Positions 624-48,360 of a stretch of 64,000 bases of DNA are shown piece by piece. A model generated the notes under the pieces. That model had not been told where the DNA came from. It made no database searches and saw nothing but the letters and a program-made list of their open reading frames with translations. Both the position numbers and the translations under genes were made by a program. The stretch's first letter is position 1. Every line of letters begins with the position of its first letter. The DNA lies in contig JAULBX010031370.1 in NCBI GenBank assembly GCA_032358255.1, forward strand, positions 248,001 to 312,000, written 5' to 3'. The stretch comes from Heterotrichella gracilis. Lineage: Eukaryota; Sar; Xanthophyceae; Tribonematales; Xanthonemataceae.

Positions 624-2666
624 CTGTGTCAGCGGGTATCTCCAGCTCAATGAAGCCGCCATTGGTGGGGAGCGTGGGGGGGAGGGCTGCGGGGGTGCGG
701 GTGCCGGTGGCGGGCGCTTTGGCGGTGGGTGGGGTAGGCAGGGGCACCCTAATAAGGGGGAGTGGGTTGTGAGAGAAGTGCTTTGGGAGCAGGAGGTGGG
801 TGATGGAGATGCTGGCCAAGAGGGAGGCTCTTTGTACACAGAAAGTATGTATATATACTTGAGTATGACACACACCCAGCCCTCACCCTTCCACCCCTTC
901 AGCCCGCACCCTCATGGTACAGACTGCTTGGCGCTGCATGTGCTCGGCTGACTGCTGATCTGCCAGTACCGCAGAAGGCGCGAAACTACCCAACTTCCTT
1001 GCATTACTCGGGTTACGTCCCCCAGGCGGGCGTGCTGTGGCAGCACCCACTGGAGCCACTGCTGCTGGTTACCCTAAGGTATACAGCAATGATGACGCAC
1101 TCCAACCCCCCTTTCACACCTTCACCGTGCACCGTGCACCTCGCCCTTTCCCCCCGCACCATGCCATCCACCCTCCGCCCCTCCAGCACGCACCGTATTA
1201 CGTCCCCCAGTGAGGGCTGTGGCGGCAGCACCCTCTGCAGCTCAGTGAGGAACCATGCCGCGCTGCAGCCAGGTGGCAGCGCCTGGTTGGCAGGGCTGTG
1301 CAGCACGTCTGTGTACTGCAGCAGCTGGTCAACCACTGACAGAACCTGCGGGGGTGGAACAGGGGGTGGGGTGGGTGGCGGGGGCTGGCAGGGCCATTTA
1401 TCTGACAGGAGGGGTGCCTGGAGGTGGTGGTTTGTGGGATTGGGTGCAGGTGGTGGTGAGAGTGAGGGTGGCCGAGGTGGTGGGGAGATGGTGTGATGGG
1501 GGAATGGTGTGGGGGGATGGTGCGCTTCGCAGGTGTATAAAGGTCGGTGTGCTGTGCTTGAGGCTGTTGAGGAAGGAAGACGCAGCTGTTTTGGGTTATT
1601 GCGTTAACAAGCTGCTGACGCTGGGACTGGCTTGTGCAGCACTTGTTGGAAGGTGCTGTTGACAGCGGGGTTGTGCGGCACTGCTGCAGGGGGGTATGGT
1701 GTGCATACTGCGACCTGCAACTTCAGGGCCTCTCTTCTGGCCCCAGGGCTACCACCATGCAAGCCTGAGGCTCCTCCTACACAAGTTTTCCGATGGCAGA
1801 GGCTCTCCCTTCATCCTGCCACGAAGGTGCCCAGCACCACACCAACACCCTGGGTGGCTCCTTTCTGGGCCTCACCTTGTAGAAGAACGGGAACCAGGGA
1901 GCCCCGGAGATGATGCACGCCACCACAGGCCTGCGCGCTGCATCCTTGCCGGGTTGCCGTGGAGGCAGGAACCGCCTGCAAGCAGAGCAGGTTGAAAGGG
2001 CGTGGATGCAAGCCAGCCCACAATAACCCTAACAGAGCCGGGTTCCTGGTTAAACTTTCTGCAGCAGGTGTGTCAGGGGCACAAGCAAAGGAAACACAGA
2101 GGCAGAAACTTACCTGCATATGCCTTGCAGCCTGCTCCCATCCCCTCCTGTCAGCGTGAAAGTGTACTCCTGCACCCCAACACAAGCCTGCCAGTCAGCT
2201 GCAAGGCTCAACAGCCATCACTTAGCAAGCATCTGGATGAATGCAATGTGCTTGTGCTTCTGAGTTGTGTGCAACCGTGGGCTAGCATACAAGTTGCAAT
2301 CGGTGCAATTGGGGGTGCTGGTCCCAGCAAAACCCTGCCCACAAAGGAGCAACACCTGTGCAGCCCAAAGCAATCTCGGTACAACCGGTTCCCCCTTTCT
2401 GCCCTCAGTGACTATTCACTGTGTGAAAGCATGCTGTAAGTTTTCACCTCTGCGCTCATAAACTCCTTGGGCTTTATCGACTTGGCGCCGGAAGGAAAGC
2501 AAAAGTCGCCCAGGTTATCCACAGCCACGGTGACATGCTTGTTCCGGGACTGGGACTGGGGGGGCTCGAACTTGCAGAAGATCTTGACCTTGTCGGGCTG
2601 GTCTGGGGCTATGTGGGCGATGAAAAAGCTCTGAATCATCGTGGCTGCTGGGCCGGCAGAATCCAT
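624..2666 (-). CDS. DENN-domain protein (DENND1/2-like Rab GEF), 5' part only
   Basis: DENN proteins are exchange factors that activate Rab GTPases in membrane traffic. Exons read on the minus strand: 2666-2448 (start; an internal Met codon at 2639 is an alternative), 2169-2114, 1975-1876, 1345 to about 1202, and probably 686-624. The first exons give a uDENN pattern: FCFPSG, then EYTFTLTGGDGSRL, then VVACIISGAPWFPFFYK, the usual uDENN-to-cDENN transition, followed by a helical stretch (VLSVVDQLLQ) and later GGFIELEIPAD. Phases match for the first four exons. The fourth donor and its link to the 624-686 exon do not fit in phase, so an exon is missing from this model. The cDENN core and dDENN part would lie beyond the left edge. 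A degraded second copy of the exon-4 tail lies at about 1010-1070. The family is clear; the subfamily (DENND1/2 rather than SCD1 or AVL9) is inferred from spacing. Confidence 0.72.
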
Positions 2667-6400: not shown

Positions 6401-9400
6401 TGAGTGGTACACCTTTGCCTTTGAGTACTGCCATCAGGTGAGCCCACCCATCATGCGCATGGACCTGCTGTTCATTACTTTACTTAACATGCGCCCTTGC
6501 AACTCACTGGACAAACAGTCATCCTTGCAAAGCTTGCGCTACCTAAATGCTCTTGATATGTCAGACCGTATACTGGCAGTTTCATGAATGCAATTGTTTG
6601 CATTTAAATTTTTCCTTAGCCCAACCTATTGGCTGGGCTATGAGCGTACAATCATACGAAAAACCTAAGGCTTCTCCCACCCCACCGACGGCAGCTAACC
6701 ACGCTCCACCACACACCACCCACACCCTCACACCATATCCCACCCCACCCCTGCAGTATTTTGACACAGCAGAGGACCTCCTAGCTGCCTGGGAGGCTGG
6801 CACCGTCAACCCATGCACCGCCAATGAGTTTGGCAACCCAGACTATAATGGGGACTGGGCCAGGACGGACGTACTGCCCCCTGCCCGCAAGGACAGCCTC
6901 AAGCCCGGCCCCCACATGTTCATGCCGGAAGGGAACAGGTTCAGGTTGGAGGGGACTGGGTCGCAGACGGGCAGGCGTTTCAGGTGGGTGGTACGGTGGA
7001 CTGGGATGAAATGAAATCAACTATTTTAGATGAAAATAATGGAATGGGTTCAGGCTGGGGGAGACTGGCTCGGAGACGGCAGGGATTAAAAATAACCGAC
7101 AATTGATATTTTTTCTGTATATTATTGTAGATTGTCTGTGTATGAATAGCAGAGAGTTATTGATGCAGACCTAAACAGAAGAACAGAACATGGATGTGAG
7201 TCCAGCGCAGTTGCTGCAATGCATGTTGCCCTGCCGCCCATTTTCCCCTCCCCTCCCCTCACCCCCCTCGTCCTCCCCTTGCAGCTGGATGGGGTGGGAG
7301 GGCCACATGTCCCTCAACGCCATGACCGGCCTGCGCATGTTTGACCTCACGTTCGAGGGCCAACGGATCGTGTACGAGCTGTCGCTGCAGGAGCAATACG
7401 TGGCCTACTCGGGTTACAGTGGCAGGGGGGCGGTGTACTATTATGACTCCCACTATGGCATTGGCACGTGGACACAGCCGCTGAGGTGGGTGTGGGGAAA
7501 CCCTAAACCCTAATTAATACTGGGAGCATTGCACTGGGAGGATTGTCCCTGATATTGGGTTGCAGTGCGGCAGCGCTGCATGCGATGCTGGCCAATAGGC
7601 GTTGGTGTGTCTACCATGCTGTGCTTGTGGTGGGCTCTGGCCAACCTGGTTTGTGTCAGGCTGGTGCAGAAACAAAGTAACCCCTTTTTTTGGTGCATTA
7701 ATCAGGCTGGTGCAAGAAATAAAGTAACCCCTTTTTTTGGCGCATTAATTAAATGTTATTTGCCTACCTTTGTCGTGCACTACTTTCACTGAGGGGTTGT
7801 GATTCTGGACAAGTCAATAAGTATTAATGCTACACCAGTGCAGGGATACGGTGAATGCCTCGTAAAGGTAGTAATGCTTCCTTTTTTTTATCTGTGCGCA
7901 GGAAGGGCATTGACTGCCCCGAGACTGCGCAGTATGTTGACATTGTGGTGAACGACTTCATGGGGGGATACGCGCTGAGGCGTAACGCAATCTGCATCTT
8001 TGAGGATGACCTGGCAACAACCACATGGAGGTGAAAGAAGCATAATATTCATCTGTGGATGGTAATTTCATCCAATCTGATCCAACACATATTAAAATTC
8101 CCCAGGCAAATTCCACACAATGACACATACATCATGTTTGCCCCTTTGCAGCAAATTCACATCCCTGCATCCACAATCCACAAGAGCCGCGCACACAACA
8201 ATAGTGAATCAATCAATACACAATGGTTATGTTTCCCTCCCCGCTGGAACCCTTAATAATCAACCTACTACATTTTCCCTCCCCGTTGCAGGCACACCCA
8301 CATCCCCGCATCCCCCTTCCACAAGGGCCGCCCGCACAACGACGGTGCCAGGGAGACTGACCTGGTGGTGCGCAGCGTGGCGCCTGTGGGCAACTACGAC
8401 TACGTGTATGACATCAGGTTCAAGCTGGATGCGTCGGTGGAGGTCAAGGTGTCCATGGCGGGCTACATGACAGCGGCCTACTACGATCCAAGTATGTATA
8501 TGGTTCACGGTTTAGGGTTTAGGGTGCAAGATTTGCCCTAGCACCATCAGCCATGTCCTGCAGCATAACATATGCCACAGATATGTATACATCATTCCAT
8601 GGCCCTTGCCACCTACACCCCCTGCCCCAGTTGATATGCAAGGTGTTGCCTGTATAGTGTACTCCACTCAATTACGCATGCATCATGGGATAATATCCAC
8701 TGGCATACATTATGCCATGGCAACGTATCTCTTTCCATTCCTAATTCGCTGTGGTGGGAGTCCCTTCGATATTTGCAATTTTAAATCAATTCAAAACAAA
8801 TTTGAACAACGCCTTTCTTTGCAGAGGGCACCACCTGGAAGGACACCCCCTACGGCACCCGCGTCCACAAGTACACCCTGGCCAACCTGCACGACCACCT
8901 GGCGGTGTGGAAGGTGGACCTGGACATCCTGGGCACAAACAACACCCTGGTGGCGCATTCAGTGCACTCCGGCACCTTTGAAGACGCGGGGCTGCCCACA
9001 CCCAAGTGGGCCGAGCCCCCCTTCACCTACAAGTACATCAAGAGCAGGACCATTGAGGAGGAGGTCAGGTTGAAGCTGAACGGGTCAGCGCCCAGCGTGT
9101 GGCAGTTTGTGAGCAACGAGGTGAACGCGGTGGGGCTGCCACGTGGCTATGCTATTGTCCACGGCTCCACCACCCAGCAGCTGATGCCCAATGACCACCC
9201 GTATGTCAAGTGAGTGATGAGGAATGCTCTTGCATCATCCCAGCGAACTGGGGGCATATGTAAAGATTGGGTCCATTGCAATATGCTTTCTTGGTATGCA
9301 TGGAGTGCGCATACATCCCACCCCGAGAGCATTTTGCTGGACTGGAGTGTGCAGTCAGAGGGCGCAATGCGTTGTCTGTCCTCCCATCATATCCATGGTT

Positions 9401-14693: not shown

Positions 14694-17600
14694 TTAGCCC
14701 TCAAAGTTGCTCATGACGTGGTTCTCAAGCACCTTCTTGAGTGAGTGGGGCTGCACCTCCAGCCCCCGCTCGATCTCGCTCCTCAGGGTCCAGTGCTTGG
14801 GGAACTGGTCCAGCGTTGGGCGCCAGTCGCTGTGCAGCTTGCCCAGCTCCCGCAGCAGCTCCCGCCAGTAGCACAGCCGCCCGTCCTTGCGCAGGTGCCT
14901 GCAGGGTCCACGTGTGAGTGTTCCATTTGTTTCAGCATTTTATTATTTGACAGTTCTTACTGTACTATCTAGAACAAAAGCAGCATCGCTCCCCTTTTCG
15001 ACTAGATTAGGTGACCAAAAAAAATTGTATACAATTTTTGGTGAGGTGTCTAATGCGCCCAAAAGACGCACACAATAAAGGTGAAAATTGATCCTATTCT
15101 CTCCAGTATGGAGCCAACCCGGGCCTAATTTGCTTATTAGCCACAAAATATATACTTCCGTAGTTTTTTGCAACCTCCTGGCCTGCCTTGGCAATGCGCA
15201 GCGTCTCATCGTCGTTCTCCAGCAGGGTTTAGGGTTTAGGTTGAGGGTTTAGGGTTACACACTTTTTTGGCCTGCCTTGGCGATGCGCTTCGGCTCATTG
15301 TCATTCTCCAGCAGGGTTTAAAGTTTAGGTTAGGGTTTAGGGTTACAACCATTTTGCAAACTCCTGGCCTGCCTTGGCGATGCGCTGCGGCTCATTGTCG
15401 TTCCCCCGCAGGGTTTAGGGTTTAGGGTTTAGGGTTACACACCTTTTAGCAAACTCCTGTCCTGCCTTGGCGATGCGCTGCGCCTCATCATCATTCTCCT
15501 GCAGCCACTTGACGATGCCCAGGATGTCGTCGTCAGAGTTCCAACCGATGGGCACCTGTTGAGGAGTGCCAGCGTGTGTGAGAGGAAGAAGAAAGAAAGA
15601 AAGAAAAGGGACACACAGAGGCGGAGTGAAGGGGCCACTGGTTTGCATCAGGGCACCGACCAGCCAGAACGGCTGACCAAGTATAGGCCCTAGCCAATTT
15701 TAGTAGGCGTGAATTTCATTGAGATTACAATTTGAATTATATTTTTTGCAGTGACTGCGATCAACCAGTGCATACTAAATCACATGCAACATGTCACATT
15801 TTCCACATTATGCACTAGGATGATTGGATTCTAAGCTGAATTTAGCACCTTTGCACCTGACATCATGGAGAAAGTGTGGGACAGTACTGGGGTGAAAAGC
15901 AGATTGGTTACAAACAGCATGAATATCATACAGTATCCTACAAAGCACAATCAGTAGCTTAATTGCAAAGGGCATGATTATGTACTCAATCGGCCAAGAT
16001 GAGTGGTGAACAATGTTTCAGGAATGTCCCAATCAGCGATTCAAATTTGATGGTACCCAGCTTCAAGATCTTTACTGCTGAATCCACCGCATGTCAGCGA
16101 TGGAGCTCAAGCAATACTCAGCATTTATAGATGTTGCAGACGGGTATCACCAGATATGATGCGCTGAGGAGGATATTCCAAAACAGCGTTCACAACTTGT
16201 TTTGGACTAATTGAGTACACAGTCACGCCCTTCAGCCCTACAAATGCTCCAGGTTGCATGGTGACCGTCACGGATACAGACAAGTGCAAAAGCACGCTGC
16301 AGTTGCATAGACACTGGAAGCCTGCTCCAAGCCTCCAATGGGTGTGCATGCAGGCGTACAGTACAGCCATCTTTGCCTGCTTGCACGGGGCCCCATGGTG
16401 AAACTTCCACACGTGCATGTGGTGTGCCTTTCCACACAAGTTGCTCCAAGCATGGGCCATGGCAACAGGTGAAAGCGTGCACCAAAAAAAAAAAAAAAAA
16501 ACTACGCTCCTCATCTCAAGAATGAGAGCGTTGGTTGAGGAAGAGACAGAATGAGAGAGAGCCAGTCTCGGAGGCTGGTCATTCCCTCATGTGTCCCTAC
16601 CATACCAGAAAGCGTGCACATGGATGTGGTGCAGCCTAGTGGCAAGGCGTCTGCGGGCGCGCACAAGGCAATACAATACGCCGATGAAAACTGGGGATGC
16701 CTTTCTGTTTGTTTGTTTGTGGCAAGGTATCTGCCGTGGTGACAGGTGGGTGCACGCATGCAGTGTAGGCTACTCACAAAGTGCTCCCATGGCTGGATGG
16801 CACTGCGGAAGTACATGCGCATGGTCTGGTCGTTGTACAGCACAGTGCTCCCCATGGCCAGCAGCTTGTAGAACCTGCAGGATAAAGTACAAGTATGATT
16901 GCAAACTATGACATTACATAACTGGTGCTGCATGTTCAAGAACAATAAGTGGCGGCAAATAGGTGAGCAGCCTCACCCATATATAAGAAAGGGACATTTT
17001 TTATAATTAACTACTACTACTAACATTCCAGCAGCACCGCCAAATTGGCAGTGTACAAGTACCCCGTTGAATGCAAGCAGTGTCAACATGCGACATGGAG
17101 AGCTGGCTGGTGCAGGGCATGTAGACCATACTCTGATCTGACTGTATTGCTGACACAAGTACTGCCAGGTACACATCCCAACCTTGTTGAGCATCCAAAC
17201 CCGTCCATGACCGTTGTGTACTTGTACTTTGACATCTCTGCCAGGGGCATGAGGTCCTCGTGCACGCGTATGTCTAGGATGCCGGCGCTGCGGTTCTGCT
17301 TGCCAAGGGCGGCGTAGTGGGTGCGGGGGCACTTGATCACCTGCAGAATTGACAACAAAACTGAAGAGAAAAACCATATAAAGCAGTATGCTGTATGTCC
17401 TTGGCAAGCATTCAGGTACATTGTCACCAAGTCCTGCACTGCAGTGGCACGCAAGTCCTGCCAGGGGGGTATGGGAATGGGGGTGTTTGCAATCTGAAAC
17501 AGTGGAAACTTCCAAATTACCAGTCAAATATGTTGCATGGACCTGCAAGCCAATGTGGCATTGGTGATTGTGACCTGCAATCATAGGTCATTGCCAATTC

Positions 17601-26232: not shown

Positions 26233-27177
26233 ATGTGGACGGTTGTGGTGTTGTTGTTTGGGTTTTGCTGAGGAAATGCAGCTGCTGGATGGGCCATAGT
26301 TGACGTCATGTATATTAGGTTGATTGACTTGGTTGAAATCACTGAAATGTGTACGAGGATATTGCTGCTTGTCACCAAGCAAGAGCAATACCCAAGTAAA
26401 ACCCTAATTAAACCCTGCATTTCAGCCCTATATGAACTGGAAATGGTGGTGGGGATGGACTTTGCCAGCTTCATCCTGATTGCACATAAAGCGCAGCATT
26501 TTCCAGTGAATTTCCCACACCAGCCTGCAGTGCCGATGACCACCGTCAAGGTTTGGGGTACGGGTGCAAGTGACAAGTGCTATTGTGATGTTCTGCCCAT
26601 ACAAAAAGCTGATGGAATAGGGTGGTAGCCAGGGCTATGACGGCACCCTCGATCTCATCGCACTTTCCTGACCTCCCTCTCTCCAAGATTCTCCTCGAGT
26701 TCTGCAGCTGGTTCTTGCCGGTGGACGTCGGGAACAGCTGCAGGGTTGAAGGACAATTTGGGTGAGGGAGGTAGGAAATGTACAAGGAGATCTGGGGTCC
26801 GCCAACGCCCTGGCTGCCACCCCTGCCAGCAGAACCCACCATTGCCTCCCTTGCCACCCACGAAACAGCTAATTATTCTTGTACCAAGTCTGCTCTGTAT
26901 ATATTTCTGGTGTCGTGGTGAGATATCTGAGATGGAATTAATATCTCCCTGTGGTCCACCATAGTAGCTCAGACTACTATAGTATTATTAGCAATAAGAG
27001 GTTGTCCAGGAAAGCACCAGGCACATGTTTCAAAATCAAGGTGCACAGCACAGTGTGTGAAAGGTTTACTAGCTAACACACAAGGTTCTTCTTGTAACCA
27101 CACCTTGCGTTGCACGTGCTGTGACACAAAGCACGCTCTATGGCCCTTAGTATGGGTTGCTACTAAGCAGCCTGAAT
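26233..27177. other. Intergenic region, GT90-B to CCR4-like gene
   Basis: About 0.9 kb between two plus-strand genes. It should hold the GT90-B 3' end and the promoter of the next gene. No motif, RNA gene or coding frame of recognisable type was seen. Confidence 0.45.
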
Positions 27178-30100
27178 ATGGCCGACGGAAGGCCCGCCAG
27201 CATGGCATCATTCTGCAGGTTCTTCACCAAAACTGGTTCTTGCAAATACGGCGACAGCTGTCGGTACCGCCACGACCTCTCCACGCAGCCTTGCCTATCG
27301 AACGAGGACCGTGTGTGGAGCGAGAAGACGGTGTGTGACAAAATATGCATGCATGCATATGGCAGGCTCGGCCACTGTCCTCGTGGTTGGTCTGCACCAC
27401 TGCAGCCAGTTCTTTTTAACATTTGTATGGAGTCGATTGTGAGCCTTTTGCGTGTTGTCGAGTGGAAACCTTTGACATCTCCATATGTCAGCAGTGTCAA
27501 TATGCATGCATGTGTCAGGCTCCGGATAGGTGCTCGTGGTTGGTCTGCCCATTACATTTCTGGCCACACTGATAGCATACGCATGTGGAGGTGAGTCTGA
27601 GCTTGTGTTTGCAGTTTTTAACGGAAACCTTGAACATCTCCATATGCATGCATATGCCAGCAATGCCTTGTGTCCTTGACACTACTGTCCTGATCAACGC
27701 AGACAAGCACCAGCACGGCACAAGACGGGGATGCCAGTGATGCAGAAGGCTGGGAGATTCGATACATGACATACAACATCCTTGCTGATCAACTGGTGCG
27801 CCCCCCCGACACCACCGCCCACCACACATGTTCACAACCACCACCGCAATCCACGTTTAACACGCCGTGGAAGAAGATCACAGCCCTTAGCATATTCAAA
27901 TGGATTGCGCAACTAGTCTGCCTGCCCCCTGCACTCCACCACCACCCACCACTGCACACCGACACCCCCAAACCCATTGGGCCCGCACCACTTCCGAGAC
28001 CCACTACACCCCACATCCACCACCCGCACACCCACCCACTCCCTCTTCCTGCGCCAGGCCCAGGGGCACGCGCCGAGTGTACAGCACTGTGCCGTCAACC
28101 CGAAGTTCATAACCTAAAACCCTACACCGTAAACCCCAGGAGCACGCGCCTGAGTGGTACCGCGCGGTTGTCCTTACATTTTGACCTAAATCCTTACTCG
28201 CGCTGTGCCCTCAACTCTTTACCCTGACCCCCTTTCCAACCCCGCGCCAGGCCCAGGAGCACGCGCCCGAGCTGTACAGCGCTGTGCCCCGCTTCTGCCT
28301 GGACTGGCCCACCCGGCGGCGCGCGGTGATGCGCGAGGTGCTGCACTGGGCCCCCGCGGTGCTGTGCCTGCAGGAGGTGGACCACTGGGACTGGTTCAGG
28401 GAGCAGCTGGGCAGGGCAGGGTAGGTAGTTGTCTAGGGTTTCGGGAGGGAACGGGAGGTGGCGTTGTCTGCCCTAGGCTAGGGTTTTGTAAGGCTGCATG
28501 ATGTGGCTAATTCACCTGTGGTGGCTAAATGTTGCCTTTGTCATGTACAGGTATGAAGGCGCATTCAGCGCACGCACTGGAGGGCGACCCGATGGATGTG
28601 CCACCTTCTGGTACGAGCAGCATCTACGCCACCACCATCAATACTGCATTTTGCGGGGCATTACTAGTTCTAGCTAGCTAAAAAATCGTGCATGGCGGGT
28701 TTCAATCATGTGATGTGACTCGTTTAATAACGCGCACATGCTCCCATTGCATGGTAGGGTTTTTAGTAGGGTTGATTCTAACCTGTAAACTCTGACTGGT
28801 GGTTACAGAAGCACTGTGTGCATGTCCTACCAGCAAAGGGTAAATATACAGTGTCCACATGCTTTAATTTACACCTGGGCACCAGCTTCTGACCTGCGCT
28901 TCACCTCCCAGGGTGCAAGAGGGCGAATTAGGGTTTAGGGTCTAGGGTTATGAGTTTTTGCCTCCCCGGGTGCAGGAGGGCGTCTGAGTTCCAGGCCGCA
29001 CAGGTCGAGTGTGTGCAGATGGTGGAGTATGGGCTGCGCGACAACGCAGCGCTGGTGGTGCGGCTGAGGAGGAGAGGTGGGTGGCGGGGGTGGGGGTGGT
29101 GAGAGTGGGACATTGGTTTGCTGGCGCAGCTTTCGTGAGCTCTTCATTGAGCGCATTTCAAAATGCCACTGACCCATTCGCTCCGCCTGGGGAGCACCAT
29201 GTTACACACCCTCCCCCCCAGGTGCCAGCACCGGGGTTATTCCTCCCCACGTATTAGTTGGCGACATCCATGTGCAGTTCAACCCCAAGTAGGGAGTGGC
29301 GAAATTGTCAACGAAATCGTAGGGAGTAGAAATCGTCAAGCTGGCGTAGCGTCATTGGATGGCCATTGATTCCCGTTAACCTTCCCCACATGCCATGCCA
29401 CATTGGCGGGCCACCTCGCACCCTGCCACTCACTCCCAATACCCCACCCCTCCATCGCTAGGCACTCTCGCCCCTGACCTGGTGGTTGGCAACATCCACG
29501 TGCTGTTCAACCCAAAGCGGGGCGACGTCAAGCTGGCGCAGCTGCGCACCCTGGCCACACGCATGAGCGCTGCGCAAGGGCAAGCGGGGCGGCCCTGCCT
29601 GGCATTACTGTCTGGGGACTTTAACTCAACGCCCTTCAGCGCAATCTACCGGTGCGTGGAGCAGGAATGCTAGAATTATAAAGAGTGAATTGGAGGCAAA
29701 TACAAAGGAATCAATGTCTGTAAAGATTTGGGGGGAAATTGTATGATATCTGTGACTACAATGAGCGTGCAGGGCGCACCCTTCAGCACCATCAACCCTA
29801 GTTTTGCAACAGGTCATTCGGTCACATCAAGGTTTAACAGCAAGATGACAGCCTTGCATGCCCGCTCTTGCCTTATGACGCACGGTTCCCTCTACTGCGG
29901 GTTGGAGGACTGGCGCGACATATCGGGCCAGGTTGTTCAGGGTTTGTGTTTGCGCTGAAAACCCTAAACCCAATTGTAGGTTTATGCGTGACGGCTCCCT
30001 GGACTGCCTGTCTGAGGACCGGCGCGACATGTCTGGCCAGGTGGAGCTGAGGCGCCGCAACCTCATGCAGCCGGGCCACCCCTATGTGCCCGACCTGCGC

Positions 30101-32761
30101 CAGTCAATCAAGATGGGCGCGGTGCCGGGTACCTCCCCGACCGACGTGCGGCAGGTGAGGGAATGGATGGTTGCTATCTATTTTTGCAGTGTCTATATAC
30201 AATTGAGGGTTAACAAAGAAAACAGGGCAGGGTGGATGAAGGTATCGCATCTTAAGGGACAAAGGGGTTGCAAGGTGCAAAGTCGGACCAGGAACGCTTG
30301 TTTTACAAAACAATTTCTAGCAATACAGCCAGTCAATTACATCTGCGGCGCTATCCAGTTGGGTCGTGGGACTGGGTAGCCAATTATGGGCATTCAAACT
30401 GTGCAAAGATGGAGTGGGTGGAGTGGTGACCACTGGTGCTGGATGCAGCCCGCCTGGGTCACACTGTGGTTGTGTGAGTAGAAGTGGGTTTTGGGACACA
30501 CATGTGGTTGTAAATGTGATTGTGGCTGTGTGCCAGGTGGCGCCGCTGGGGGCCGATCTGAATCGGAGGGCCTCGTTCGAGCACACCATCATCAGGCAGA
30601 GTGGGACCGCACCGATCGCGGTGATGCGGCGGGATGGGGAGGGCACGGGGGCAGGGGGGAGTGGCGCGGGGGTGGTGGGGCGGGGCGGCTCTTGGGAAGA
30701 GCGGCGGGGGAATGGCATGGACAGCAGCATGGACAATGGGCAGGTGGGTGGGCGGAGGGGGCCCTGTCTCTGCGTCGAGCATGGCGTGCATGCCGTTGAA
30801 CCAAGGTGTTTGGCTCGAATCATGGCGCTGGTAGTCGTGGCATCGGATGTTCAAACTATCACATTGAATCAGGACCATGGCCCCTGTCGTACCCTGTGGA
30901 TTGTCGGTCACACCCTCGAGGCTATCAACACCATCCGTCCACCATGTATGCGAAGCTCACTAAACTCTGTAGCCTATACCCTTTAGGGCCCCTAGGCTGA
31001 CGACCCAACGCAGTACCCCAAACCCTGATCCTTCCTGGCCCTGTAGCCTCACAATCCATATCCTGTATCTTATACACTGTACCTAAACCCTCCTGACCCT
31101 ATAGGTTGATGACGACGAGCTTGAGGCCACCACCATCATCCTCCATTCATGTACCCTAACACCACCTGACCCTGTACCGTAAACCCTCCTGACCCTGTAC
31201 CAAAAAACCCTCCTGACCCTACAGGTTGACGATGACGAGCTGGAGGCCACCACCACCATCCTCCCGAACTACATCAAGAAGATGCCCGATGTGTGCCGCA
31301 GGGGGAGCTACTCATGTCCCCTTCCGCTGGACCCGGTGCCACCTGCCGCGCAGCCGCCGGCAAATGGTACGCGCACATGCACAGCCCTAAACCCTAAACC
31401 CCAAACATCTTGCAGGCGCATGGACTCACGCACACACAAAACAGCGGCGCGCTCTGCTGTGTCATGTCATGTAGTGTGAGGCAGTGGCAGCCCCCTGTCG
31501 CCAAGCAATTTCAGGCAATAGCATCGAGCAAGGGTTGGATTGAGACAATGGTGTCCCCTGTCGTTGGTGAAGGCAGTGGCATCTCTCTCTTCCTTCCCGA
31601 TGGCATGCTTCCCCTTTCTCAATGACATCCACCCCCTTTTGTTCCACAGCCTCTGCGGACGAGCGCATCCGCGCCCTGCAGCGCGTCATCTCCTCCCGCA
31701 AGTGGGACATGCCGCAGCTCCAGGTGGCAATCGGGACAGAGCACACACCCCAGCAGGACGCATACTTCACCCCCAGGTACGCCACTGCAATGTGCACTCC
31801 TGGGCTACATATTGCCAAGGGTGGTATGCTATAAAGGGGGAAAGCATAGGGTGAAATTCCCATTGTTTAATACATTCTTGACGTAGAAAAATGCACCCTG
31901 GGCCAGATCCTGCCAAAATTTATAAGATAAAGTAGGGATAGGCCTGTTGTTTTTATATCCTGTTAAACTTGACCCTGCTTTTGTTAAAATATCCAAGGTA
32001 CGAAATTGCACACTCCCATGCCCAGGTCCTACATTGCCACGCACCCCCTGCGGGGCCTGCGCAGCGCGTACGCACACATCCTGGGGGGCGAGCCGCTGTA
32101 CACCACCTGCCACGCCAAGTTCATCGGGAGCGTGGACTACATCTGGTACACACCAGGGACGATTGAGGGCCCCAGGGATGGCCAGGTAGGGTTTGGGGTT
32201 TTGAGAACCCTCATTTCATCAGCTATGGCAGATCATTCCTTCCCCCTGTTGCTCTTTGCTTGGTACTTTTGGTATTGCCCCAGTGTAATGCAATTGTGAC
32301 TGTTAACTATGCGTTTCGTGCTATGGAGCAAAATTGTCACATAAAGAGGAAACGCACATGGTTGGCGGGAGAGGAATGTGTAAAACAAATGATAAAAAAC
32401 ACTCAAAAAATCGACCTGTATCCTTGCGTGCCCCTTGCCCATCTCTTCATCCCCACAACCCCTTCCGCAGGCCCCACCGGCACAAATGGAGCCCATTCGG
32501 GTGCTTGAGCTGCCGCCCCTCACCTCCCTCCCCTGCGGCCTGCCCACCTCCGTGTGGCCCTCAGATCACATCTCCCTGGTGGCTGATTTCAGAATAACCC
32601 CCCTGGGCGCCGCCTCCGCACCCGCGACAGCAGCTGGAGCTGGTGCCGGTGGGGTGAAGGGCAAGGGGGGCAAGGGTGCAGGGGGTGGTGCAGCTGGGGG
32701 TTTGGGGTTGGGGTTAGGGTTTGGTGGCAGCAGCAGCAGCAAGAAGCTCAGGAGCGGGTGA
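27178..32761 (+). CDS. CCCH zinc finger fused to CCR4-type exonuclease/deadenylase (EEP family)
   Basis: EEP-family nucleases of the CCR4 group shorten mRNA poly(A) tails. Twelve exons join in phase to about 622 aa: 27178-27330, 27703-27795, 28251-28420, 28551-28610, 28976-29076, 29462-29651, 29980-30154, 30537-30743, 31225-31366, 31650-31776, 32026-32185, 32471-32761. Residues about 13-33 form a CCCH finger (CRFFTKTGSCKYGDSCRYRH, spacing C-X7-C-X5-C-X3-H), an RNA-binding module. The EEP domain follows: YMTYNILADQL, the magnesium Glu in CLQEVD, NIHVLFNPKRGDVK, SGDFNSTP, VDYIWYTPG and the catalytic SDH in WPSDHISLVADF. All catalytic residues are intact. A Gly/Arg-rich insert sits in exon 8. 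The C-terminal tail is Gly/Ser/Lys-rich, partly encoded by a telomere-like GGGTTTGG run. Closest in type to plant CCR4 homologues of the Angel/nocturnin branch; the finger fusion is unusual. Confidence 0.9.
27340..27660. repeat. About 155-bp tandem repeat with ATGCATGCAT palindromes in intron 1
   Basis: Units starting near 27343 and 27500, plus a partial third near 27640, each begin with a TATGCATGCAT palindrome. Each continues with a CAGGCTC and TCGTGGTTGGTCTGC block and ends with GGAAACC...GACATCTCCATATG-like sequence. The copies are diverged. Confidence 0.75.
28050..28175 (+). repeat. Two decayed copies of CCR4-like exon 3 5' edge
   Basis: GCGCCAGGCCCAGGGGCACGC (28050 onward) and CCCCAGGAGCACGCGCCTGAG (about 28135 onward) copy the true acceptor and start of exon 3 at 28245-28290 (GCGCCAGGCCCAGGAGCACGC). 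Both keep an AG acceptor. Confidence 0.85.
29220..29352 (+). repeat. Decayed copy of CCR4-like exon 6 5' edge
   Basis: The intron stretch with TTGGCGACATCCATGTGCAG, then TTCAACCCCAAG and later GTCAAGCTGGCG follows the order of exon 6 (29462-29545: TTGGCAACATCCACGTGCTG, TTCAACCCAAAG, GTCAAGCTGGCG). It carries insertions and starts after an AG at about 29221. Confidence 0.8.
29875..29935 (+). repeat. Decayed copy of CCR4-like exon 7 5' part
   Basis: The sequence ATGACGCACGGTTCCCTCTA...GGAGGACTGGCGCGACAT followed by GGCCAGGT matches exon 7 (29984-30042: ATGCGTGACGGCTCCCTGGA...GAGGACCGGCGCGACATG). It is about 106 bp upstream and is followed by AAACCCTAAACCC just before the real acceptor. Confidence 0.88.
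31017..31224 (+). repeat. Copy of CCR4-like exon 9 5' edge plus CCTGACCCT mini-repeats
   Basis: ATAGGTTGATGACGACGAGC (about 31101-31120) copies the true acceptor and exon 9 start (ACAGGTTGACGATGACGAGC, 31221 onward) 120 bp downstream. Between them lie several AAACCCTCCTGACCCTGTACC-like units that are themselves copies of the pre-acceptor tract. Confidence 0.88.
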
Positions 32762-38070: not shown

Positions 38071-41000
38071 CCACATCCGCTGGGCGCAGCACCCTGTCCA
38101 ACATGGTGTACCCCTCCTGCAACACAAGGATGGGGTCAGGTACATAAGGGGAGAGGCTACAGAGGCACATACGAGGTCAACAGCTACATAGGCGAGATAC
38201 CCTAGAGGGTCAAGCAGGGTGTGCGCATGTGTGCAATTTACATAGACACACAAACGATCTAGCTGTACCCTTGATATCTGCAACATTTATACCTACATTT
38301 ACAAAGGGGTACAAGCACATTTGGCTACACCCAGCTACGCATGTTGGCCCTCCTCGACCCACAGCCTTCAAACACTAAACCCTCAAACACCCTAAAGCCT
38401 CCAACCTTGACCCTCCCTAACCACCTCCACCACATGTGCCCCCCTCTCACAGCAGCTACATCCCCACAGGGTCCACAAAACACCCACTGCCATAAAAAAT
38501 AAAAAACCATATCTGGGTTAGGGTTTAGGGCTTAGGGTGGTGACTAGCGAGTCAAGCGCTGCTGCTATCCCCTGACAGATATGATACTCCCCTCCTTCCA
38601 AAACCCTAAACCCTCTGATCCTCCCCTCCCCTTCCCCAAAACCATGCCCCACTACTGCCGCAACACGCACCTTGACCACCACCGCCACAGTGCCTGGGGT
38701 TTGGCTAGGGTCTGGGATCTCAAACATGGCGTTGTGCCTGTTGGGGTCAAAGGCCTCTCCCAGGGATGGATACCTCTCCACTCCCGCCTGGCGCAGAACC
38801 TGGGGGGAGGGAGGGGGGACCATATTGCACCCATGCATTCCATGTGGGTATTTATCCATGCGGGGTGCAGGCTGGCCCTGTCATCTGGTACGCAGGCTTG
38901 CGTGCAATGGGTACATGTGGACTACCCATGGCATGTGCGAACATGCCCTAGCAAAGCCTAAGCAGGGTTGTACCCAAGCTCGTGCAAGACCATGCGATCA
39001 ATTGCTCCCCCACAGCCACCCCACACGTGAACACAACACCCCCATACACCCCCCTCCCATATCCCCACGTGCAGACCACCCACCTGCAGCATCGACTTTT
39101 CCGTGATCTCCACCCCCTCCAGCAGGCTCTTGAGTAGCGCCAGCGCCTTCTCCCCGTCCACCTGCTCCTCCCCCGACAGCACGCCACGTGGCACCGCGCC
39201 AGCCGCCCGCTGCAGGTTGTCAGCCACGTCCAGCACCTTCTTCACAAAACCCTACACAAGGGTAACGGGGTGCTTTCAGACGCCGTGAGGGATCTTGCGT
39301 GTTGTCCAGACTCTCACCACCCACCTGCCACCTAAACTGCCCACCGTGTAACGGGGAAGTCTTAACCATCGTCAAGGATCTTGCACAGCATCCACGGCAT
39401 TGCCGGCACCATCACCACCTCCCTGTCGCCTAAGCTTGCTGTGCGGCGCCCACCTCCCCCCCCACCACCCACATGCCATCTGTCCAACAACCACCACTTC
39501 CCCCCCATCCACCCGCAATCAAAATATCTGCACCTCGAGCTTCGGCGCATTGTCCACCTCCCACCCCGCACACCACCCACCCACAGCCTAGACTCCTGTG
39601 CATCGTGCACCAACCCTCCCCACCCACCTGCGCCCCAACCTCTGTGCAGTGTGCACCTCCCTTCTCCCCACACACCCACGGCAACAACCCTACCTCCTGT
39701 GCATCAGACACACACCCAACCTCCCCGCCCCTCCCCACCCACCTGTACCCCGAGCCTTTGTCCATTGTGCACCTCTCTTCTTCCCGCACACCCACTGCAA
39801 AAACCCTAACTTCTGTGCATCATACAACCACCCAATCCCCCCGTCCCCCCCCCACCCACCTGCACCCCAAACTTCTGTACGTTTTCCACCTCCCGCCGCG
39901 TGCGGTGCAGCAGGTTTTCCATGTCTGCTCGGGTGCGCAGCAGCTGCTCCCTCAGCTCGTCAACCTGCAGGGGGGAATCGGAGGCTATTTAGGGGTAATG
40001 AATGGGAAGGTGGAGAAGTGTGGGGGTGTGGGGGGGAAACGGAGACTGTTTATGGGAAGCTGGAGTAGCCTCCGATTCCCCCCTGCAGGAGTGGGGAGGT
40101 GGAGGCGTGTGCCAACCCAGCTTTGTCCTGTTCCATTGACGCCAGGCTCGCTCGTAGTCACTAATATGCAATGGGTCGGTTGTCGTCCCCATGGGCGGAC
40201 ATTGGGTCCGCTTGGTATCAGCAGTGGTCAAGCGACCACTGGATTGTCATTGGGTTTGACACTCCTTGTAAACCCGCCCCATGTATATATGAGGGGTGAA
40301 GCAATGAGGGATGAAGAAATGGGACCCCAAAAAAAATGAACTGCCGAGAGGGTTGGCGACAGACGCTTCTATTCCCGGGGCTGTCATGAGGCACATGCCG
40401 TGCACATGGGTGCATGCCCATGCGAATGAAAGTCACCCCCACCTTTTCGCTCTGCTCGGCGATCAGCGCCTCCTGCTCGTTCACCAGCACCTGCAGCGTC
40501 TCCAGGGTGGGCGGCTGCGCCCCAGCGTCCTCCCCCGATGAACCACTGGCAGCCGCATCCTGCTGGGGGGTCTCGGGGTCGATGCTGGGCTCGGACTCAG
40601 TGCTGGGTTCTGTGCTAGGCTCTGTACTGGGCTTTGCATTGGTCTCCACTGGAGTACCACCCTCTTGTTCGGGAGCGGGGGTTTTACCGGTGGCGTCTGT
40701 GGCGAAGCCTGCCCACCGGGGGGGAGTCTTGCCCTCATCGTGCCATGCTGGAGGGTGGTGGCGGACCACCTGGGAGAGGAGAGCAGGTGAAGGCAACGGG
40801 AGTTTGACAAGGATTCCCTGAGATAGGGTTTGCACGCATCCCGGTATAAACAGCTGGAACAGGAGGCAAGCAGGGTGCAGGTTTTGGATGTGGGCATCAC
40901 AACAGATGCTATGGTCCACACATCACAATGCAATCCTTGCGGCTGCACTACATCGAACCCGGTTCACATCCACCCACATTGGGGGCACCAAGTCCGTTGT

Positions 41001-43890: not shown

Positions 43891-46800
43891 CTATGCCAGC
43901 CCCACCGCCGCCATCGCCCGGTGTGGGTCTTCTTCCCAGTCCTGGCGCGTGATCCAGAACTGTGCCCGTCCCCGCATGATCTCGGCAAGAGCAGCCGCGC
44001 CCACAAACACCATGTGCTTGCGCCGGGGGGGGTCCTGTACACCCAGGCGTAGCCGCCGCAGGCCGCTGCGATCGCCCTGCAAGGGTGGTGGTGGTGGTGA
44101 TATGGTGGTGGTGTGGTGGGTTTGTGTATATGTGGAGGGCATCGGGCTGAAATGCAGAATAGCTAGAAAAAACCAAGTAAAATGGTTTGGTGGAAGCTTC
44201 ATCGCCCCCAAGTACGGTCCACACATAAATATAATCTAAATCATGCCATATGGCGGCAGTTCATGCAAATCCGCAAGGGAAGCCCCCCTTCGGAAGGGTT
44301 GGGCGGGCTGCATGGCCGTTGGCCACTGGCTGATTAACGGTGCTGTAGCTGTGGCAAGCTCTCCATTCCAAGAAAGTTGTGAACCCTACCAAAACCATAT
44401 CCCAAACCCTCATTACGGTTCCCCAGCCCCCTACCTGCAGCACCTTGTCCAGGAACAGGTGCCTGAGCTCCCGCTCCATTCTGTTTGGCATCCCCGGGAA
44501 CATGGACGATCCCCCGCTGAGCACGATGTGGCTGTACAGGGACATGCGGCTGTCCATGTCAACATCCTGGGAGGAGCAGGAAAGGGGGGCTCAGGGCTGG
44601 TAAAAAATGGCTAGATTGGTGTCGGGGTGTAATGCTGCAGGCTCGTCTGCGTACAGCTGTGCGCCGTGCTGCCCCCTCACCCACCCACATGCATGCAGCC
44701 GTGCACGGCGGTGCGTCCACATGTGTGCAGCTTTGCATCGTCCATCCACACCCGCAGATGCACAGCCTCCCACTCCCCAATCAGATACACTCCTGCAAAC
44801 CCCACACCCCCACCCCTCCCTATACACAGCTGCGCCGCACCCTCCCCCCCGCCAAGCGCCCCCCACCCCCGGCCCCCCACCTGTATACAGCTGTGCACCG
44901 CCTCGGCAATCCCCTGCGCTTCCATACCCAGCAGCTTAGGGTCAAACAGCGCCTCGGGGGCCATGAAGCGCTCGCTGCCCACCCGGATCACGCGCCCGTC
45001 GGGGAGGGTGTAGGGGACCACGTGGTGGACGGTCTCACGCGCGATCTGGGGGTGGATGAGAGGAGGTGGGGAAGGGAGTGAGAGGATAGAATTGGGGGAA
45101 GTGGTGGTGGTGGTGGTGGTGGTCAAGGACAATGTGGTTTTGCTGGATGGCGGTGTGACACACGGCGGGGATCTAGGCAGGGGGATTAAGGCCCATGCCA
45201 TGATCACCGCCATATTCACAGCCATGACGACAGAAATGGTTACAGCAAGGAACACGCCCATGCGTGCACACATCACCCTTGAATGTGCATGTAAACCATG
45301 AGCGACTCCTGTGTGCGTGGTGTGCCCCTCCACCCCCCACCTTGAGCTCCTTCTGGTAGTCATACGCCACAAAGCAGGTGGCCTCCTTTAGCTGGCGGGC
45401 GGCATCCATGTCAGACATGCGGCTCAGGCTGGGGAAAGGGGGAGGAATTGGGGGTAAATGCGTTGAAATTGGTAAACGGTGGAGCTGATGCACCATATCA
45501 GTTATGCAGCTCAGGCTGGCAAACAGGTAGGTAGATGGGGTGCAGCTGCATGCATCCAGGACCCGGTTCAAGGAACGTTTGTTTTCAGCCCCCCCTTGCT
45601 CAGCTGGTTGATGTTTAGGGTTCAGGGTTTTAGGGTTGAACCCTCCCATTCCCACCTGTATCCCCTCCGCTGCCGCAGCTCCACCAGGTGGTTGGTGTTT
45701 AGAGTTTAGGGTTTTAGGGTATCAGGGTTGGACCCCCACCCACACCCACCTGTACCCTCTCCGCTGCAGCAGCTCCACCAAATGGTTGGTGATGTGGCGA
45801 CCCGCAACGTTCAGGCGCCGCGTGCAGTGGGGAAAGCAGAAGCCATCAACGACGGGAACCTGTGAAAGGGTGTGGGTGCAGTGGTGGGTGCAAAGTATGT
45901 TCCTAGCCACACTCACTGCATTACTGCATCCCCAAAGCGAAAGCCAGTCATTTGACATCCATCCACACCTGCTGCCCACCACGCATTAGAAGGCAACACC
46001 CTAGCCATGGGTTTTTAAGGGTTTTTTCCTAGGTCTCACCGTGTGCGTGCATCCATCCCCGCTGTCCACCACCATCCCAGTCAGCCGCCCTGCGCAAGCC
46101 AGGTGTCCCAACAGGCAGGTGAGTCACATCGGGTAAGCGGGAGCAATGCACGACTTGAGCACACAGCGCTGTTTTTGATGTGTTGGGCGGGGCGATGGCC
46201 AGGAAATGACCATGCCATGACCTTGTGATGACTGTGCGATGACAATGTCATTCATGTGCAATGACATTGCGATGACCATGTGACAACTGTGTGATGACCA
46301 TGTGATTAATGTGCGATGACATTGCAATGACATTGCAATGACCGTGTGAGGACTATGTGATTAATGTGCAATGACATTGCGATGACAGTGCGATAACTGT
46401 GTGATGACCTTGTGATGATCATACAGTGACCATGTAATGACCGTGCAATGACGCTGTAATGACCGTGCAATGACCGTGTAATGATCATGCGATGACCATA
46501 CGATGACCGTGCAATGACCGTGTGATGACCGTGTGATGATCATGTGATGACCGTGCGATGACCATGCGATGACCATGCAATGACCGCAGTGGTATGCCAC
46601 ATGCCGCATGTGCAATCCAGCTGCTGAGCCGTGGTAGGGTACGGAATTTTGCGGGGCGGGGCCCACGCAGTAAGGTATAATAGAATTATACGGGGGTTGT
46701 TATACGGGGGTTGTTACCTTGCGCGTACAGCGCCAGCACCGCCTGCACCTGGATGTATGCCGAGTGGAACTGTTAAAGGGTTTATGCTTAAAGATTTAGG

Positions 46801-48360
46801 GTTTACCTTGCGCGTACAGCGCCAGCACCGCCTGCACCTGGATGTATGCCGAGTGGAACTGTTAAAGGGTTTATGGTTAAAGATTTAGGGTTTACCTTGT
46901 GCGTACAGCGCCAGCACCGCCTGCACCTGGATATATGCCGAGTGGAACTGGTACTCCTCTAGCATCACCTCGAGCATCTGGGGATGAAGAGTGGGGATGG
47001 GGGGATGTTGGAGAAAGCAGGCAGAAGGCGTGGCTGCATGACCAAACCTTGCCACACCCTGAACCCTACCCGCACACGCATTGACATGCACAGGTGCAAG
47101 TCCACTTCCAGGTAAACCCCAAAACTCTAACCAGTTATTCAGTGAAAATTACCGATGCATATGAGTCAATAATGACCAAGAGGCAAACCCCTCAACCCTT
47201 AACGGGTGCCCTGCAACTGCCAGAGCCAAACCCCACTCCCCACCCCACCTTGTGCCTGTGCTTTGTAGAATTGAACAGCGGCTTATTGAGCAGCACCCTA
47301 CATGCCGTTGGGTCAACCGCCATCACTACAACATACAGGCTGCATGCCAACAACTTGGTAAACCCTAAACCCTAGACAAATCATAGCAAAAAGAGGAACC
47401 CCACCTTGTGCCTGTGCTTTGTGGGGTTGAGCGGCGGCTCAGTGAGCAGCACCCTACACGCCGTTGGGTCGCACTTGAGCTCCTGACAAAACACGTGGTC
47501 CCACACCGCCATCATGTCGTCCCAGCGCTGCACCACGCCATCCTGCACGGGGTAGCTCACCCGCACGTCCGCGCAGTGCCGCTGGCACTCCTCGCCCACA
47601 AGCAGCTGCGGGGCGGTGGGGTGGGGTGGGGGTGGTGCTGTGTGGGGTGTGGGGGTGGGGCAAGCAGATGAAGGGAGTGTGTGGGTTGTGGGTTGCTGAT
47701 TTTATTTGTGTGAGTTGTGGTGTTGGTTTGTCGAGCAGAGGGGTAGCTCACACGGACACTTCCGCTGGCACTTTGAATTACAAAGAGCTGCGGGGGGGAG
47801 GCACGGGGATGGGGAGGGGCGGTGGGTGCGCTCCCGATGTGTGGTGCAGTACTGTGGTTTCAGTGCGTGGCGGCAGGTGGGCTGGCTAAACCCTAAACCA
47901 TAATCCCTAAACCCTACCTGTTGGTTTGTGTTTGAGGTTGACTCGCTGGAGTGCCCCACCATGCACGGCACCACAGCCCGCGGGAACACATCCCCGGCAA
48001 ACCCAGCTTTGACGTACTGCAGTGGGGGGGAGCGGGTATGCGTGTTGTGAGCAGTGATGGTGTGGGAGTGCAATTGGGTTGCGAGCGGGGCATTACAATC
48101 CTTATTTGTGCGCATAGATAAAACTTTTACAATACATATGCGGGTGGTGCTGTACACAAGCTACACATCAAGATGGCGGTAAAACCCAAACACAGGTTCC
48201 AACTAACCATGTATATTGGTCACAATCCTTGGTCTTCCACATGTATATGCAACACAGCCCTATAGCCTCAGACTGCCACTGGGACTCCACTCACCCCGGT
48301 TCCACTGTCGCACACCACCACATTCTCCTGGGGCCAGTCCACCTCCTCAGGCGCGCTCAT
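43891..48360 (-). CDS. ARP2: Actin-related protein 2 (Arp2/3 complex subunit)
   Basis: Arp2 pairs with Arp3 to nucleate branched actin filaments. Ten exons join in phase to 392 aa, matching the usual length of about 394: 48360-48295, 48016-47918, 47605-47405, 46977-46896, 46089-46040, 45859-45750, 45428-45341, 45045-44881, 44566-44435, 44076-43891. Nucleotide-binding motifs are intact: phosphate-1 [18 protein letters not shown], phosphate-2 [13 protein letters not shown] and the adenosine loop [33 protein letters not shown] is conserved. The end, [21 protein letters not shown], separates Arp2 from actin, Arp1 and Arp3. Several introns hold copies of adjacent exon edges and one holds a minisatellite. 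Presence of Arp2 indicates an intact Arp2/3 system, which is patchy among green algae. Confidence 0.95.
45595..45720 (-). repeat. Decayed copies of Arp2 exon 6 donor edge
   Basis: CCACCTGTATCCCCTCCGCTGC followed by CAGCTCCACCAGGTGGTTGGTG (about 45653-45699) copies the true edge at 45747-45792 (CCACCTGTACCCTCTCCGCTGC, CAGCTCCACCAAATGGTTGGTG). A shorter remnant lies at 45597-45615. TTTAGGGTTTTAGGG words separate the copies. Confidence 0.88.
46195..46590. repeat. ATGACCRTG minisatellite in Arp2 intron
   Basis: About 390 bp is built from short degenerate units of roughly 9-11 bp around the core GATGACCATGTGATGACCGTGCAATGACC (core split: GATGACCATGT / GATGACCGTGC). It lies in the intron between Arp2 exons 4 and 5, far from both splice sites. 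Confidence 0.92.
46714..46977 (-). repeat. Exact-period 89-bp triplication of Arp2 exon 4 donor edge
   Basis: Copies start at 46714, 46803 and 46892. The first two are 89 bp long and differ by a single base. The third is the real exon 4 end and shares about the first 55 bp with two differences. On the minus strand each unit reads ...CTGTACGCGCAAG then a GT donor. The copy-2 and real donors run directly into GTAAACCCTAAA. Confidence 0.97.
47240..47325 (-). repeat. Decayed copy of Arp2 exon 3 donor edge
   Basis: CCCACCTTGTGCCTGTGCTTTGT then GAGCAGCACCCTACATGCCGTTGGGTC copies the real exon 3 end at 47400-47470 (split: CCCACCTTGTGCCTGTGCTT / GCACCCTACACGCCGTTGGG), about 160 bp away, and keeps a GT donor. 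Confidence 0.92.
47740..47800 (-). repeat. Decayed copy of Arp2 exon 3 acceptor edge
   Basis: GGGGTAGCTCACACGGACAC, CCGCTGGCACT and GAGCTGCGGGG repeat the order seen at 47550-47612 around the exon 3 acceptor (GGGGTAGCTCACCCGCACGT, CCGCTGGCACT, CAGCTGCGGGG). This copy is on the opposite side of exon 3 from the donor-edge copy at 47240. Confidence 0.85.

Follow-up and report, generated by a model that had tools for sequence, protein, structure and literature searches.

The stretch of DNA analyzed here, the window, is 64 kb of the alga Heterotrichella gracilis (C875:248001-312000, in a 68.5 Mb assembly of 903 contigs), and our subject is a set of introns in it that carry serial copies of their own exon edges, many of them accompanied by telomere-like DNA. 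Window genes with Pfam support are a copper amine oxidase (N2 domain, E=9.8e-05), a histidine phosphatase, GT90, GrpE, Ppx/GppA and a uDENN-domain gene; ARP2 and SF3B3 were identified by matching to solved relatives. The telomere repeat of the genome is of the plant type, TTTAGGG, a RuBisCO small-subunit gene is present in the assembly, and a telomerase RNA-binding domain was found in the genome. Two GT90-like genes lie back to back at 14697-19370 (minus strand) and 21701-32758 (plus strand), and the second of these gene models probably joins the GT90-like gene to a separate nuclease-like gene, as read from the protein.

The array described in the original prediction lies in an intron of the gene GT90-A, whose protein matches Pfam Glyco_transf_90 (E=2.6e-32); a search of this protein against 5.8 billion proteins returned 939 candidates, none of them at E≤1e-3. 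On the minus strand, the donor edge of the exon (15443..15504), identified as the source copy by the gene model, the Pfam match and the array, is followed by three decayed copies at 15357..15411 (48/55 identical to the exon edge), 15268..15314 (41/47 identical) and 15165..15225 (52/61 identical), with self-match offsets of 89, 186 and 279 bp. The copies are kept apart by runs of CCCTAAA (coding strand). Written on the plus strand, the filler between exon edge and first copy is 27 nt of exact period 7 (15410..15436), that between the first and second copies is degenerate (15315..15346), and that between the second and third spans 15224..15256, the latter two having been read in the sequence. 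The three decayed donor-edge copies, with telomere runs between them, are therefore present as the original prediction described them. The stop-codon end of the same gene also has a copy, ∼206 bp beyond (14490-14534 and 14696-14739, 87% identity); this is a gene end and not a splice site.

We used three samples. The main one is unselected and comprises 264 kb, namely the window and C2:1-200000 (200 kb of contig C2); unless another sample is named, the results below refer to it. The second consists of 27 stretches around perfect telomere triplets outside the 264 kb, taken in listing order (3 of the 27 lie farther along C2; L008, other overlapping matches and C26:131834, which is near an included stretch, were omitted). 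The third consists of 10 stretches picked because the telomere pattern recurs in them at close spacing, 2 of them from the listing of a TGGA control. Gene models were made by a small gene finder trained on the 264 kb itself, yielding the 49 genes and 430 introns used here, with a median intron of 265 bp and splice signals close to CAG/GTGAG (donor) and of the form GCAG/G (acceptor). The edge test scored how well 50 bp of exon edge aligns with its own intron, relative to 300 stretches of equal length drawn from the introns of other genes; its smallest possible p is 1/301, and the pass threshold was p<0.01. Leaving out 43 of the 430 introns (exon side <40 bp or target <30 bp) gave 387 tested introns.

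Copies of an intron's own exon edges are common, and they are not a local peculiarity of the window. At p<0.01 they were found in 61 of the 387 tested introns, about 1 in 6: 18 of 94 in six genes of the window, and 43 of 293 in 17 predicted genes of C2:1-200000. The pervasiveness claimed at the outset thus extends to a second contig, and the earlier count for the window, at least twenty introns of seven genes, is about right, the 18 introns of the edge test being joined by three arrays seen in self-comparison. The donor edge was copied in the following intron in 42/347 cases, and the acceptor edge in the preceding intron in 27/346. These own-edge matches clearly exceed both the wrong-side controls (exon end against preceding intron, 2/232; exon start against following intron, 3/233) and the exon-middle controls (5/233 and 6/232). 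A gene-end control gave 0/27 at 5' ends and 2/34 at 3' ends, which is too small on its own to show that copies need a splice site. Copy-bearing introns are slightly longer (median 322 vs 267.5, p=0.07) and lie slightly later in genes (0.58 vs 0.48, p=0.024). The rule that donor copies follow the exon and acceptor copies precede it is real, as the wrong-side controls show, but it is evidence for no particular mechanism, because any junction-spanning duplication that leaves the exon whole must produce this placement.

To describe the copied unit independently of the gene models, we detected tandem arrays by self-comparison. This yielded 83 arrays, with 70-97% identity within array pairs, while block-shuffled sequence gave no repeat pair at the same threshold. 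Exon-to-intron junctions were spanned by 50 of the 83; the others were intron-only (13), intergenic (5), mixed (11) or exon-exon (4). When the annotation was shifted, the expected numbers were 27.2±4.5 for junction arrays (maximum 42 in 500 shifts), 21.0 for intron-only, 19.1 for intergenic, 8.7 for mixed and 7.0 for exon-exon. The junction excess could be due in part to slower decay of the exon copy. We therefore restricted the comparison to arrays of 88% identity or more, in which unequal decay weighs less, and found 10 junction arrays against 4 intron-only or intergenic ones (p=0.003 against a neutral junction share of 0.32, in a test that omits the 11 mixed and 4 exon-exon arrays); at 90% or more the numbers were 7 and 3 (p=0.016). 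In the 46 junction arrays with a single junction (4 of the 50 have several and were omitted), the unit has a median exon part of 47 bp and an intron part of 11-12 bp. The splice site itself is generally kept: among copies with p<0.01 and z>5 that reach the junction, 19 of 23 on the donor side still have GT and 13 of 19 on the acceptor side still have AG. The inference that the copied unit spans the splice junction is thus upheld. Since what is copied includes the original donor or acceptor and, in many cases, intron bases, the unit is an existing junction, and the process is very probably the lengthening of introns, as had been proposed, and not intron gain.

The introns that contain copies are also rich in telomere DNA. 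The telomere 7-mers CCCTAAA and TTTAGGG (coding strand) cover 28.3 and 17.4 bases per kb of copy introns, compared with 10.4 and 9.0 in other introns, 2.7 and 3.4 in intergenic DNA, and 1.7 and 2.9 in exons; 19 control words made of the same letters cover 0.7-7.0 bases per kb of copy introns. Because intergenic DNA is defined here by the self-trained gene finder, intron composition may have biased that class; the gradient within introns is unaffected by this. Downstream of donors, telomere words of both orientations are most abundant at a distance of 10-40 nt; upstream of acceptors the peak lies at 10-60 nt and consists of CCCTAAA only. All seven rotations of the word are enriched after donors, indicating a repeat and not a single motif. 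The same gradient appears in introns without a copy (p<0.05): coverage near donors is 19.1 and 22.9 per kb (CCCTAAA and TTTAGGG) vs 5.4 and 7.2 in the interior, and before acceptors it is 16.0 for CCCTAAA and 4.9 for TTTAGGG. Near start and stop codons, with both orientations counted, density is 5.0 and 10.2 per kb. No 5'-to-3' gradient of telomere words was found along genes (p=0.78), and opposite words paired at the two intron ends (donor G with acceptor C) occurred in 4 of 315 introns.

Outside the 264 kb the association with introns is visible as well. Of the 27 perfect triplets, 25 lie in predicted introns and 2 are intergenic (intron share 0.49, p=2e-6), and 13 of the 27 are within 60 nt of a junction. 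A three-unit telomere pattern has 540 matches genome-wide, overlaps counted, and a TTTAGGG array opens contig C70. Words were also counted on both strands of the whole genome, overlapping and tandem matches included, and these counts are not independent of one another. AGGT followed by a word of the CCCTAAA type occurs 1477 times vs 966 for the TGGA control, and AGGT followed by the TTTAGGG type 2113 times vs 1208; the sample contains slightly fewer AGGT than TGGA words (2508 vs 2655). A word of the CCCTAAA type precedes GCAGG 1175 times vs 876 for the TTTAGGG type.

How closely are the copies and the telomere DNA linked? A telomere word lies near the junction in 29 of 54 introns with an edge copy, vs 80 of 285 without (p=0.0004), and on the donor side the numbers are 16/38 and 56/268 (p=0.007). 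Spacers of at least 14 bp occur in 61 of the 83 arrays. For junction and mixed arrays with such spacers (one mismatch allowed, exon bases excluded), the fraction covered by telomere DNA is 0.29 in the 20 bp that open the spacer and 0.26 in the 20 bp that close it, compared with 0.17 and 0.14 in the copies and 0.10 over all introns. The check suggested along with the original prediction, enrichment at copy boundaries, gave a positive result in these arrays. The further statement that telomere words are joined to the copies holds as an association, but the words are also concentrated beside the splice sites of introns in which no copy is detectable. Duplication and telomere DNA are thus associated but separable, and neither requires the other.

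If telomerase made the telomere DNA, the runs themselves might carry its mark. We wrote exact telomere runs of at least 11 nt on the G strand and recorded the register in which each begins and ends, after removing runs of identical context. The start is spread evenly over all seven registers (n=65, p=0.50), while the end is biased, with 24 runs ending at GGGTTT and 14 at GGGTT (n=65, p=3e-6). Runs with a clean 3' flank show the same end bias (n=46, p=0.0005), as does the longest run from each of 48 loci (end p=3.7e-5, start p=0.69). Simulated runs that were cut at random, with or without mutation, have no end preference, and the preference is independent of whether the G strand is the coding strand. 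A free start combined with a preferred end is the mark expected of telomerase priming anywhere and stopping at the end of its template. Base-specific decay or slippage would be expected to show at both ends of a run.

These observations can be brought together as follows. A break, or a pair of nicks, near a splice junction would be repaired, and the repair would recopy ∼50 bp of exon edge together with a few to a few tens of intron bases. The new joint would often be filled with telomeric DNA as telomerase extended a free 3' end. The spliceosome would continue to use the outer, intact junction, so that the inner copy would be non-coding and would decay. Rounds of this kind would repeat, and sometimes exon edge, splice site and filler would be copied together as a unit of ∼85-110 bp. 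Our best explanation is accordingly worded: introns lengthen in place through junction-spanning repair duplications whose joints are often filled by telomerase-added DNA. We give this explanation, taken as a whole, close to an even chance. The copies, their placement and the telomere DNA beside splice sites are there to be read; from them we infer breaks as the cause, telomerase as the maker of the filler, and breakage favored near splice junctions. The idea that telomere-like DNA is added during break repair gains from its higher density at spacer edges and from the end preference in the 264 kb; that preference is not clearly repeated elsewhere.

Several results weigh against this explanation. 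The exact 27-nt telomere stretch of GT90-A adjoins a copy that has lost ∼1 base in 8, raising the possibility that the stretch was renewed later, for example by slippage. The 27 triplet loci do not serve as a confirmation of the end register: their apparent agreement came from the selecting runs, whose search pattern ended in GGGTT. With the selecting runs removed, these loci show no preference at 11 nt or more (n=32, end p=0.81) and a weaker one at 9 nt or more (n=60, 19 at GGGTTT, p=0.01). In the 264 kb, the start register becomes uneven when runs of at least 9 nt are included (p=0.0016). Had telomerase primed on the nearer copy, one would expect G runs directly next to the left copy and C runs directly next to the right one; 21 of 38 runs agree with this and the other 17 do not. 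Because the other loci do not clearly repeat the sign, the starts at 9 nt or more are uneven, and adjacency is split 21 vs 17, we lowered our confidence in the telomerase step. The association between copies and telomere words is weak on the acceptor side (6/24 vs 34/283, p=0.10). Introns bearing a perfect triplet have an edge copy in just 7 of 25 cases (61/387 in general), and an array on C2 is 96% alike and free of telomere DNA, from which two facts we drew the separability stated above. Arrays at least 95% alike are too few for a junction preference (3 vs 1, p=0.10). Finally, the gene models are self-trained on sequence alone, and one assembly was compared with itself, so that no single event was caught.

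The alternative that survives best holds that neutral tandem duplication, by slippage or paired nicks, occurs everywhere and is purged from exons, while the telomere words are a microsatellite that expands in introns without telomerase. It draws on the intron-only (13/83) and intergenic (5/83) arrays, on the telomere-free array of C2, on the coding constraint that keeps one copy of a junction array recognizable for longer, and on the failure of the end-register sign to repeat clearly in the other loci. Yet restricting the arrays to those at least 88% alike does not remove the junction excess. The telomere words stay close to background in intergenic DNA, and within introns their density beside splice sites is ∼3 times that of the interior, with the exception of TTTAGGG before acceptors; nor does neutral duplication lead one to expect the preferred end and free start of the runs in the 264 kb. 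We consider this alternative unlikely, while granting it a substantial minority share of the probability.

A second alternative, which we judge still less probable, is that telo-box-like elements (branch points, intronic enhancers, G-quadruplexes or protein-binding sites) are selected and the duplications are secondary. The restriction of enrichment before acceptors to CCCTAAA, where TTTAGGG would add an AG, is what selection might produce; the enrichment there extends to CCCTAAC and that after donors to G-rich words, and G-quadruplex motifs are described as enriched about threefold near splice junctions in the cited part of PMC9065059. The strongest words after donors are, however, C-rich, where neither a branch point nor a G-run would call for them, and all rotations as well as some multi-unit runs are enriched. 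Moreover, 212 of 315 introns of at least 150 nt do without such a word near either end, and the copies of exon edges are left unaccounted for by selection.

It is very improbable that the arrays are new introns, derived from duplicated AGGT-containing exon DNA or from Introner-like elements. AGGT is indeed part of the units, and splicing is conceivable for some of the inner ones (ARP2 46714-46953), but the copies include the pre-existing donor or acceptor with intron sequence, and no dispersed telomere-flanked element was seen joining introns of different genes in the 25 strongest of 66 cross-intron matches. An artefact of assembly or gene models is hardly credible: two arrays contain N runs (L030, L033) and the gene finder took some copies as exons, but array pairs are 70-97% alike, unlike an assembly duplication, ARP2 and SF3B3 reduced to one copy show no gap at the arrays when aligned with solved relatives, and the effect is present on many contigs.

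It is instructive to compare our preferred explanation, repair duplication with telomerase filling, with systems already described. Interstitial telomeric sequences at double-strand breaks in mammals are short telomere runs, some with duplications (4.6% of rodent and 16% of primate insertion events in Table 1 of PMC2246262), and telomerase was proposed as their maker from the register of the primer (PMC2246262, as far as the portion cited here extends). Ours are similar in having the organism's own repeat, TTTAGGG, inside chromosomes, as runs at sites of apparent repair, with duplications at some. They differ in that the telomere DNA lies beside splice junctions and serial junction duplications are common, and our register evidence concerns the 3' end of the run, whereas the test in the mammalian study, in the portion cited, concerned the primer side. 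Repair-mediated duplications of proximal DNA in vertebrates likewise place a nearby copy with filler at the joint, as do the 61 arrays with spacers described above. In the cited portion of PMC2671141, few of them combine exon and intron (partial exon/intron donors are 4/824 in Table 2) and the filler is not described as telomeric, while 50 of our 83 arrays run from exon to intron.

The scattered single telomere units found here also resemble plant telo boxes. According to the cited sections of PMC3022908, those are single units that show enrichment in 5' UTRs but none in introns and form a gradient along transcription, and they were proposed to arise by telomerase acting on 3' ends opened in transcription. 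Ours lie near splice sites, have no 5' gradient and are associated with duplications. Upstream of genes we found no enrichment: coverage 8-60 nt before the start codon is 5.0 bases per kb vs 5.6 farther out, in a genome whose untranslated regions are unannotated.

Tandem duplication of DNA containing AGGT has been proposed as a source of new introns, and in a potato case the intron-exon structure was copied, the same gene having an 83 bp duplication inside an intron (PMC4974935 and PMC3443670, cited in part). The link that the original prediction made to this model stands as far as tandem duplication of the junction goes, with AGGT and splice sites inside the unit. The outcome of the model is a new intron, and none was seen here; existing introns grow, many are affected, and telomere DNA is involved. 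Introners, in the part of PMC9860276 considered, also change introns genome-wide, and a word search of the main text of that paper found neither "telomer" nor "tandem". The hallmark of Introners, highly similar introns in unrelated genes, was absent in that no telomere-bearing element is shared among the 430 introns; the 25 strongest of the 66 matches between introns can probably be put down to paralogy, local repeats, simple sequence and a dispersed repeat free of telomere DNA. Neither a flank resembling telomerase RNA nor an introner-like family was seen in this comparison. The dispersed repeat, around ACATGCATTCCAGCAATACAGCC, occurs in introns of several genes of C2 and the window and is possibly a transposable element.

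Telomere insertion at breaks, proximal duplication with filler, the telomerase model of telo boxes and intron gain by tandem duplication are thus each known separately, as far as the cited parts of these papers show. None of the papers listed by our searches of open-access literature was seen to describe a concentration of telomere DNA or of junction duplications at splice sites, and the combination, both centered on splice junctions, may be new among them. It suggests that splice junctions are a focus of breakage, or of repair at the least, and that telomerase may be at work inside genes. We regard as possible, though doubtful, the stronger proposal that splice junctions are recurrent break sites tied to transcription or splicing, where telomerase routinely acts and leaves telomere DNA and junction duplications behind. 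If this were true, an enzyme of chromosome ends would be a main driver of intron length genome-wide. The steps of intron growth can be read in the sequence and ordered by decay, which makes them testable, and the end-register result yields a concrete prediction for the template of the telomerase RNA. The findings bear on how introns become long and why their length stays high in some compact algal genomes; for relatives of Chlamydomonas, PMC8226300 describes the driver of intron length as likely ancient and, in the cited part, does not name it.

The remaining arrays of the window are distributed over six gene models; those found in self-comparison and not by the edge test are noted as such. 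On the minus strand, the uDENN-domain gene has a donor-edge array at 1013..1241 (82% identity, seen in self-comparison and not passing the edge test), and GrpE an array at 39528..39894 (75%), where the copies confuse the gene model. On the plus strand, the copper amine oxidase has a donor-edge array at 6929..7083 (81%) and an acceptor-edge array at 8141..8340 (80%). Four acceptor-edge arrays lie in the gene model 21701-32758, also on the plus strand: 28048..28288 (90%), 29257..29517 (88%), 29882..30042 (81%, with a telomere word in the spacer) and 31074..31264 (88%, with a telomere-like spacer).

ARP2 (minus strand) carries donor-edge arrays at 45601..45791 (79%, telomere-like spacers), 46714..46953 and 47242..47470 (89%, TTTAGGG of the coding strand in the spacer). 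The array at 46714..46953, found by self-comparison and not by the edge test, consists of three 89-bp units, each made of exon edge, GTAA and degenerate telomere DNA; the units are 97% alike, and the array is a recent event. SF3B3 (plus strand) has two arrays classed as mixed, at 52749..53027 (85%, self-comparison and not edge test) and 53804..54052 (an acceptor-edge array of three 90-bp units with telomere-like spacers, one copy taken as an exon), and donor-edge arrays at 54209..54443 (73%) and 55127..55417 (77%, two copies in the intron). The gene finder took copies as exons at ARP2 46714-46953 and SF3B3 52749-53027. When a single copy of each duplicated edge is kept, both proteins align gaplessly with their solved relatives at the array positions, and we therefore take the remaining copies there to be intronic. 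At 46205-46586, within an ARP2 intron, an 11-bp word (∼TGCGATGACCA) is repeated in tandem, and this array is itself nested within longer periods.

In the third sample, inspection by eye found exon-edge-like units joined to telomere DNA in all 10 stretches, which were selected for spacing and are uninformative on frequency; at L033 the gene finder placed no exon at the repeated unit. Two of these loci, L030 and L033, have runs of ∼100 N inside telomere-filled arrays with nearly identical flanking copies, so that the copy number is uncertain. At L038, many exon-edge-like units with telomere words are accompanied by repeated predicted mini-exons, which could be spliced copies.

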